Origin: Gemmatimonadota bacterium
GTDB lineage: Bacteria; Gemmatimonadota; Gemmatimonadetes; Longimicrobiales; Gaopeijiaceae
DNA length: 64,000 bases
Reading direction: 5' to 3'
Assembly: GCA_030428885.1 (NCBI GenBank)
Contig: JAUIEJ010000003.1
Location: forward strand, 124,001-188,000
Positions within the stretch are counted from its first letter, which is position 1, and the number at the start of each line of letters is the position of its first letter. The position numbers were made by a program, and so were the translations under genes. Shown here in pieces: positions 17,260-26,620 of this stretch. The notes under the pieces were generated by a model. It was not told the origin of the DNA. It saw only the letters and a list, made by a program, of their open reading frames with translations, and made no database searches.

Positions 17260-17356
17260 CTCCCGCCCCTTCGTCGCCCCCGCTATCGTAGACGTTCCCG
17301 CTCCCTCCAGCCCCCTGACGCCGATTCCCACCCAGCTCATCGACAACCACCGGCCC

Positions 17357-18625
17357 GTGGACCGGGCGGTCCTCGTGTCGGCCCCGCCCCGGGACCTGGA
17401 TCCCCGTGTGGCCGAGGAACACCTCCAGGAACTGGCGCGCCTCACCGACACCGCCGGAGGCGAGGTGGCAGCGGTGGTGCGCCAGCGTCTCGACTCCCCC
17501 TCGCCCAAGACGTACATCGGACAGGGCAAGGCCGAGGAACTCAAGCAGGTGGTGGAGTCCAGCGGCGCCGACCTCGTCATCTTCGACGAGGAGCTGTCGC
17601 CGGCCCAGGGCAAGAATCTGGAGCAGGTCACGGGCGCCCGGATCATGGATCGCCCCGAACTGATCCTGGACATCTTCGCCACCCGGGCCCGCTCGAAGGA
17701 GGCCCGCATGCAGGTGGAGCTGGCCCAGCTCGAGTACCTGCTGCCCCGGCTCAAGCGCATGTGGAGCCACCTCTCCCGGACCCGGGGCGGCATCGGCCTC
17801 CGGGGTCCCGGTGAGACCCAGCTCGAGACCGATCGACGCCTCATCGGCACCCGCATTGCCGACCTCAAGAAGAAGCTCCGGGACGTGGCCCGGGCCCGGG
17901 AGATCCAGCGCCAGTCGCGCCAGGGGGAGTTCCGGGCGGCGCTGGTGGGCTACACGAACGCCGGCAAGTCGTCCCTGCTGCGGGCGCTGTCGGGCTCCGA
18001 CGTCTTCGTGGAGGACCGGCTCTTCGCCACCCTCGACTCCACCACCCGCAGCGTGGAACTGGGGGACGGCTATCAGGTGCTGGTCACCGATACCGTGGGC
18101 TTCATCCGCAAGCTGCCCCACCACCTGGTGGCGTCGTTCCGCTCCACCCTGGAAGAGGCCCGGGAGGCCGACGTGCTGCTCCACGTCATCGACGCTTCCC
18201 ACCCCGATCGGGAGGAGCAGGAGCAGGTGGTGGCCGAGGTCCTGGCCGACCTGGACCTCGACGACCGGCCCCAGGTGCTGGTCTACAACAAGACCGATCG
18301 CCTCACCCACGGCGAGGAGGAGTCCCTCCGGGACCGGGTGCGAGCCTTCACCTCGGTGCCCGCCGTATTCGTCTCGGCCCATCAGCCCGACACCCTCGAT
18401 GCCCTGAGGAGCGCCCTGAAGGCTCGCATGCGGGCCCGGCTCCACGAGGTGCGCCTGGACCTCCCGGCCCGGGACGGCGAGGTGCTGGCGCTCCTGTACC
18501 GGGAGGGCGAGGTGGTGCACCGGGACGACCAGGGCGCCCGCATCGATCTCACCGTCCGGGTGCCCGAAGCGGTGCTGGGCCGGCTCCGGAAGCGCGAGGG
18601 CATCCGGGTCCTCGACGTGGCGTAG
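17357..18625 (+). CDS. hflX: Ribosome-associated GTPase HflX
   Basis: GTPase that splits stalled or heat-damaged ribosomes. The 422 residues include the N-terminal HflX domain (SPKTYIGQGKAEEL), the glycine-rich linker (RTRGGIGLRGPGETQLETDRR) and the G domain with GYTNAGKSSLL, DTVGFIRKLP and NKTD. The start is uncertain. GTG 17357 is used here but has no ribosome-binding site, and reading upstream in frame gives residues that align with other HflX N-termini, with possible ATC (17339) or CTG (17315) starts. The message could be leaderless. Confidence 0.95.
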   Translation: MDRAVLVSAPPRDLDPRVAEEHLQELARLTDTAGGEVAAVVRQRLDSPSPKTYIGQGKAEELKQVVESSGADLVIFDEELSPAQGKNLEQVTGARIMDRPELILDIFATRARSKEARMQVELAQLEYLLPRLKRMWSHLSRTRGGIGLRGPGETQLETDRRLIGTRIADLKKKLRDVARAREIQRQSRQGEFRAALVGYTNAGKSSLLRALSGSDVFVEDRLFATLDSTTRSVELGDGYQVLVTDTVGFIRKLPHHLVASFRSTLEEAREADVLLHVIDASHPDREEQEQVVAEVLADLDLDDRPQVLVYNKTDRLTHGEEESLRDRVRAFTSVPAVFVSAHQPDTLDALRSALKARMRARLHEVRLDLPARDGEVLALLYREGEVVHRDDQGARIDLTVRVPEAVLGRLRKREGIRVLDVA

Positions 18626-25369: not shown

Positions 25370-26044
25370 ATGAGCAGCAACAACGCCACGCTGAAGGCCG
25401 AAAAGCGCGACGCCACGGGCAAGGGCGTGGCCCGGAAGCTCCGGGCCGCAGGCCGTCTCCCCGCCGTCGTCTACGGACAGGGCGAGGACGCCCTGGCCAT
25501 CACCCTGGACGCCGCCGAGACCGAGTACCTCTTCCACAACATCTCGGTGGAAAACACCATCGTGGACCTCACGGTGGAGGGCGAGGGGGACTCGTTCCAG
25601 ACGCTGGTGCGGGAGATCCAGGTCCACCCGTTCCGTCCCGACGTGCTCCACGTGGACTTCTACCGCCTCCAGAAGGGCGTGAAGGTCGACGTGGAGATCC
25701 CGGTGAACCTGAACGGGGTTCCCGCGGGCGTGAAGAGCGGCGGCGGCGTGCTCCAGCAGGTCATCCACGAGCTCCCCGTGTCCGTGATCCCGTCGAAGAT
25801 CCCCGAGAGCTTCGAGATCGACGTGTCGGGCCTCGAGGTCGGCGACTCGATCCACGTGTCCGAGCTGGAGCTTCCCGACGGCGTCGAGGAGATCGCCCTC
25901 GATCCGGAGCGCACGATCTGCACGGTGCTGGTGCCCCGGGCCGAGCCGTCCGAGGACGAAGAGGAGACCGACGCCGAGGATCTGCTCGAGCCCGAGATCG
26001 TGGGCGCCGAGGAGTCCGAGGACGACGGCGAGGGCGAGGAGTAG
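25370..26044 (+). CDS. rplY: 50S ribosomal protein L25/general stress protein Ctc
   Basis: Binds 5S rRNA in the large subunit. The 224-residue long form has the N-terminal L25 barrel (LKAEKRDATGKGVARKLRAAGRLPAVVYG) and the C-terminal TL5/CTC domain, ending in a very acidic tail (EDEEETDAEDLLEPE...). It follows prs by 39 nt. The last codons, GAGGAG, also provide the ribosome-binding site for pth. Confidence 0.97.
   Translation: MSSNNATLKAEKRDATGKGVARKLRAAGRLPAVVYGQGEDALAITLDAAETEYLFHNISVENTIVDLTVEGEGDSFQTLVREIQVHPFRPDVLHVDFYRLQKGVKVDVEIPVNLNGVPAGVKSGGGVLQQVIHELPVSVIPSKIPESFEIDVSGLEVGDSIHVSELELPDGVEEIALDPERTICTVLVPRAEPSEDEEETDAEDLLEPEIVGAEESEDDGEGEE
26037..26041 (+). promoter_or_regulatory. 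Ribosome-binding site that decides the pth start (ATC)
   Basis: AGGAG at 26037-26041, inside the end of rplY, is 9 nt before an in-frame ATC at 26051 and 21 nt before the first GTG at 26063. Only ATC is at a normal distance. Confidence 0.55.
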
Positions 26045-26050
26045 CGGCCC

Positions 26051-26620
26051 ATCGCCGACAAGGTGGTGGTGGGTCTGGGCAACCCGGGCCCCCGGTACGA
26101 TGCCACCCGGCACAACGTCGGGTGGTGGGTCGTGGACCGGCTCGCCTACGACTGGGACTTCCCCACCTTCGAGACGGATGGGGCGGGACTCACGACCCGG
26201 GGGCCGGTGAAGGGACGAGAGGTCGAGCTGCGCAAACCCACCGTGTTCATGAACCGGAGCGGGCTCGCGCTGGTCGACCTGCTGGAACGGGACGACTTCG
26301 TCCCGGCCACGGATGTGCTGGTGGTGGTGGACGACGCCGCCCTGGACCTGGGGCGGGTCCGGTTTCGTCCCTCGGGCGGAGCCGGTGGGCACAACGGACT
26401 CCGGTCCGTGGCCCAGGTACTGGGGACCGAAGCCTGGCCCCGGCTGCGCATCGGCGTGGGGCGCTGCCCCGACGACGTCGATCTCGCCGATTGGGTGCTG
26501 TCGCCCATGGACGTGGACGACGAGGAGACGGTGGTGGAGCTCCTGCCCGAGATGACCCGGGCCGTGGAGCTCTGGCTGGACGAAGGGACCGAGGCGGCCA
26601 TGAACCGCTTCAATCGATGA
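26051..26620 (+). CDS. pth: Peptidyl-tRNA hydrolase, probable ATC start codon
   Basis: Recycles peptidyl-tRNA released from ribosomes. The core shows [32 protein letters not shown] and [10 protein letters not shown] motifs; N11 and H21 (numbered from ATC) are the catalytic residues, in the same register as E. coli Pth counted from its Met. No ATG, GTG or TTG gives that register: the first standard start is GTG 26063, which removes four residues of the first strand and has no placed ribosome site. The 26051 start is inference; the gene itself is certain. Confidence 0.88.

Follow-up and report, generated by a model that had tools for sequence, protein, structure and literature searches.

Translation of pth, which encodes peptidyl-tRNA hydrolase (Pth), most likely begins at an AUC codon in the species from which the window originates and in two related species, the window being the whole stretch of 64,000 nucleotides that was analysed. 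The explanation that best fits the results as a whole, and which we hold with good confidence, is that pth starts at this codon (26051); initiation there would be weak, coupled to translation of the upstream gene rplY and presumably limited by IF3. The rare AUH start that hflX appears to use across the whole class is the more striking result and a stronger lead than pth.

Sequence features at the pth start

The window comes from a draft genome of 5.39 Mb in 23 contigs (labelled G000). The order of genes is prs, rplY, pth and a proton pyrophosphatase-like gene, the two outer names having been assigned by eye. The features of the start region are listed below.

25370 to 26044, forward strand: rplY (50S ribosomal protein L25/Ctc), the gene upstream of pth, identified by PF14693, PF01386 and TIGR00731
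26037 to 26041, forward strand: AGGAG, an SD-like sequence within the last rplY codons, 9 nt before the ATC, from the sequence and SD statistics
26042 to 26044, forward strand: TAG, the stop codon of rplY, in the pth frame and two codons ahead of the ATC, from the sequence
26051 to 26053, forward strand: ATC, the proposed start of pth, from register, SD spacing, conservation in G000, G001 and G004, and the column of five relatives
26051 to 26620, forward strand: pth (peptidyl-tRNA hydrolase), 189 codons plus stop, identified by PF01195, TIGR00447 and a structure model
26063 to 26065, forward strand: GTG, the earliest standard start available and the rival start of pth, with no SD-like sequence at 4-11 nt

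The product of rplY scored 148.5 bits with TIGR00731 (cut-off 73.1) and also matched PF14693 and PF01386. The product of pth was identified as Pth with PF01195 (189.7 bits, cut-off 27, E 5.7e-56) and TIGR00447 (162.5 bits, cut-off 100). The 3' end of rplY reads GAG GAG TAG, after which the same frame continues with CGG CCC ATC (26051) GCC GAC AAG GTG (26063) GTG GTG GGT CTG GGC AAC. The original prediction placed AGGAG 9 nt before the ATC, which is borne out by a gap spanning 26042-26050, with the ATC lying 6 nt after the rplY stop. It also named GTG 26063 as the only standard start, 21 nt from AGGAG, in agreement with the sequence read, where ATG, GTG and TTG are absent between the in-frame rplY stop (26042) and this GTG, which lies 12 nt downstream of the ATC.

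Among 178 conserved starts in this genome, 16.3% have an SD-like 5-mer at 4-11 nt, versus 3.1% of 872 internal standard codons. ATC 26051 has such a 5-mer at 9 nt, the long end of the range, a spacing of 9-11 nt having been found in 4 of the 29 5-mer sites, and GTG 26063 has none. Since AGGAG is located in the GAG-rich coding tail of rplY, specifying an acidic C-terminal tail, the motif is weak evidence by itself.

A hairpin predicted at 26045-26085 covers the AUC in G000 and G001 and is absent in G004; thus, the ATC common to G000 and G001 could partly reflect pairing. The folding energy near the pth start was the lowest in G001 and the third-lowest in G000 among 108 family loci that differ in GC content, and the window gave a z of -1.0 versus shuffles. 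A regulatory hairpin over the AUC was considered unsupported on the basis of this z value, the differing GC content and the different folding of G004.

Counting the ATC as residue 1 yields the register claimed for it, with N11 and H21, neither of which varies among 47 aligned relatives and which we take to be the conserved active-site Asn and His. The AlphaFold model of the window Pth (mean pLDDT 95.5, pTM 0.92) has its first strand at residues 4-8, and the GTG corresponds to residue 5. The contention that a GTG start removes part of the first strand was slightly overstated: Lys4 is lost and Val5 becomes Met, but the strand itself is kept. Given these positions, a shorter Pth started at the GTG would probably fold, and the structure does not decide between the two codons.

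GTG 26063 is the one real rival start for pth. According to this alternative the protein is four residues shorter, beginning Met-Val-Val-Gly-Leu-Gly-Asn, the ATC is untranslated spacer, and coupling to rplY operates without an SD sequence. The codon is a standard one and is present in all four species that have no nearby standard codon upstream, and with the model strand beginning at residue 4 only Lys4 of residues 4-8 would be lost. On the other hand, no SD-like sequence precedes the GTG at 4-11 nt, and Lys4 is at least 90% conserved in the 47 relatives and encoded by AAG in G000, G003 and G004. In favour of the GTG, it directly follows a Lys/Ala codon in all four species, although GTG accounts for 61% of the Val codons of this genome. 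The comparisons with relatives given below also bear on this alternative, which is judged unlikely.

Start codons of pth in related genomes

The pth gene was found in 113 of the 121 family genomes searched, one locus being taken per genome, and the start regions of 109 of the 113 were resolved by script. The script motif missed G052, G010, G040 and G036; G010 and G040 show standard starts before the Lys and G052 shows ATG. A standard codon directly precedes the conserved Lys (position -8) in 75 of the 109 resolved loci (38 ATG, 26 GTG and 11 TTG) and is found only further upstream in 31. In five of the 31 (G011, G140, G017, G049 and G012), all from other genera, ATG, GTG or TTG occupies column -10, exactly the column of the window ATC, which is the outcome of the alignment of relatives' 5' ends that accompanied the original prediction as a means of checking it. 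The layout in G012 is a near replica of the window, with a stop, two codons, TTG, two codons and AAG.

In only 3 of the 109 resolved loci, those of G000 (the window), G001 and G004, does no standard start precede the GTG, and each of the three has ATC at that column. Upstream of the G004 gene the pth frame stays open over 244 codons that include no ATG, GTG or TTG. In the other 106 resolved loci a standard codon lies at -8 or farther 5', which speaks against a start at the GTG; these loci include G003 (locus L114), counted among the 31, with its upstream standard candidates at least 32 codons back, inside rplY. The ATC triplet is also invariant in all three species versus 4 of 15 flanking positions, a small sample chosen post hoc. 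Because starts occupy the ATC column in other genera, and the GTG column is not required by any resolved relative beyond the clade and its sister species, the ATC is favoured over the GTG, and the start originally proposed is supported.

Use of both codons, the AUC for full-length Pth and the GTG for a truncated one, with IF3 setting the ratio, would be compatible with the presence of both in frame in all three ATC species. Nothing in the relatives points to two forms, however, and the GTG has no SD sequence, leaving this alternative very improbable. Production of Pth solely as part of an RplY fusion, through read-through or frameshifting, would accord with the rplY stop lying in the pth frame in G000 (TAG) and G001 (TAA). 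The stop nevertheless differs between species and is out of the pth frame in G004, and on the latter ground the fusion was rejected. A sequencing or assembly error at the start codon, which the draft state of the genome (23 contigs) might suggest, is ruled out by the identical ATC in two congeners with Pth protein identities of 77% and 71%, one of them a single-contig assembly. The pth ATC is therefore inherited by the clade.

The ATC occupies the pth start column in three of the six genus genomes, which belong to one clade, and in none beyond that clade. A maximum-likelihood tree of 57 Pth rows groups G000, G001 and G004 with support 100/82 and the three with G003 with support 98/97, leaving G002 (pth start GTG) and G005 (ATG) outside the four. 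On the simplest history suggested by the tree, the ancestor of these four species would have lost the standard pth start once, and ATC would have become fixed in three of them.

The sister species G003 has neither the ATC nor a nearby standard start. A CTG lies five codons before its GTG, close after GAGGG, and is a possible further non-canonical pth start.

Among wider pth loci, 6 of 69 were flagged as without a start at -8 or earlier within 22 codons, 11 of 80 having been unmatched by the script; none of the six is a clear parallel because all their frames are open upstream. In genus g25 (for example L147, L156 and L166) most pth genes encode an extended N-terminus and have standard starts located 13-37 codons ahead of the conserved Asn; the g25 genes are not parallels of the ATC case.

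Probable non-canonical starts of hflX and infC

The second gene of the window that appears to have a non-canonical start is the following.

17324 to 18625, forward strand: hflX, with the apparent start ATT at 17324, identified by TIGR03156 and a conserved AUH start column

The window HflX scored 456.1 bits with TIGR03156 (cut-off 216.75). The hflX loci compared (L260-L279 and L317-L362) were mostly the best-scoring ones, comprising 34 of 114 matching family genomes and 25 of 32 in another order, and the script accepted an AUH displaced from the column by one codon in either direction or by four codons downstream. Within the best 34 of 114 from the family the column reads AUH in 33 (24 ATT, 7 ATC and 2 ATA), the single exception having GTG four codons later. 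An SD-like motif was present at 4-11 nt in 29 of these 33 loci, and in 25 of the 33 no standard codon occurs between the in-frame stop and the AUH. The motif was absent from four of the five loci of the window's own genus (G000, G001, G002 and G003). AUH was also found in 5 of 7 loci from elsewhere in the order (with one of the seven unresolved) and in 17 of the best 25 of 32 loci of the other order; the remainder of these 25 include five in which that very column holds ATG, GTG or TTG, and one that has ACG.

In several genomes in-frame stops are found one or two codons upstream of the hflX AUH. The exchange between AUH and ATG, GTG or TTG in one column, together with the close upstream stops, indicates a start rather than a conserved internal isoleucine. 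Because it is class-wide and standard starts occur at the same column in some members, the hflX start is older and better supported than that of pth.

Both genes were recovered in a scan of 725 kb of G000 versus 800 kb of G001, with gene selection, in which 457 ortholog pairs were ranked by a combined codon-usage score for the coding-likeness of the conserved segment ahead of the first standard start. The highest ranks were those of pth (8.1) and hflX (7.8). Mechanically 148 of the 457 pairs were flagged, and the combined score exceeded 2 in five: pth, hflX and three others whose first standard start is an ATG following an aligned leader of 2 to 6 codons. The scan is blind to genes with a chance upstream start and passed over infC itself.

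A one-sided pass listed eight genes, among them two ambiguous cases named by eye. For the ylxQ-like gene after a nusA-like gene (G000:C10:238918-239394), the G001 ortholog is without a standard start before the conserved N-terminus. The peptidase-like gene (G000:C10:249100-250563) has GTG in G000 and no standard start there in the G001 ortholog.

The infC genes, encoding IF3, were read by eye in the six genus genomes, and all nine read as starting with ATC, ATT or ATA. Two infC paralogs are present in G000, G001 and G002 (L211-L219; for example G000:C1:32109 and G000:C20:284038). Since both infC genes and hflX read AUH in the same genus, pth seems to be a later addition to a set of translation-factor genes subject to start-codon discrimination.

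Known systems and a proposed role for IF3

Besides infC, a few genes have known natural AUH starts, and pth would be another case. The infC starts are AUU in E. coli, ATC in Streptomyces and AUA in S. aureus, with repression by IF3 described (PMC5472188, PMC13009471). The likeness to pth lies in AUH taking the place of AUG in a translation-factor gene; IF3 repression is described for infC, whereas for pth we infer it, and the pth ATC is confined to one three-species clade. A GTC start repressed by IF3 is described for Streptomyces sigR and was tested by mutation and IF3 dosage (PMC5472188). As would be true of pth, sigR is an individual gene distinct from infC whose expression is held down by a non-canonical start, but the codon and gene differ, and the sigR case is experimental while that of pth is predicted from sequence. 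Conserved non-canonical starts are further reported for S. aureus ccpN (AUA) and cvfC1 (AUU), with reporters giving ∼10% of AUG expression in poor medium, and a natural AUH start for S. aureus citZ (PMC13009471); E. coli pcnB is referenced there as another natural AUH case. The ATC start of Listeria rnhC is described as experimentally confirmed (PMC13068326). The conserved non-canonical starts of ccpN, cvfC1 and rnhC resemble that of pth, although the genes and phyla differ. Closest at hand is hflX of this class, a translation-recycling gene with an AUH start in the same genome, its distribution being class-wide and that of pth restricted to one clade. No report of pth or hflX with an AUH start was found in the open-licence literature.

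In vitro, weak third-base pairs at the start codon are disfavoured by IF3 (PMC10158994), and in E. coli re-initiation is lowered by excess IF3 (PMC2268962). In the mechanism proposed, ribosomes ending rplY, or 30S subunits on AGGAG, would initiate with fMet-tRNA at the AUC, and IF3, rejecting codons mismatched at the third base, would keep this initiation weak. Pth output would consequently be low, tied to rplY translation and varying inversely with IF3 activity, rising when IF3 is limiting. We infer that IF3 screening may serve as deliberate low-level control of pth, an idea that fits the AUH starts of the two infC genes and hflX of the genus as well as the precedents elsewhere. A broader proposal, advanced tentatively and which may well prove wrong, is that start-codon discrimination by IF3 governs a small ribosome-recycling regulon in the class, comprising both infC genes, hflX with its class-wide AUH, and pth in one clade, all of which would rise jointly when IF3 is scarce relative to ribosomes.

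Annotation pipelines that assume ATG, GTG or TTG starts would shorten Pth to a form beginning at the GTG and place the HflX start at an inner codon. Pth recycles stalled tRNAs. If the starts are real, two translation quality-control genes join the very short list of natural AUH starts, and whether the level of IF3 sets the supply of other recycling factors through the choice of start codon becomes directly testable. Were the regulon true, IF3 and HflX would split ribosomes and Pth would clear peptidyl-tRNA, all increasing together.
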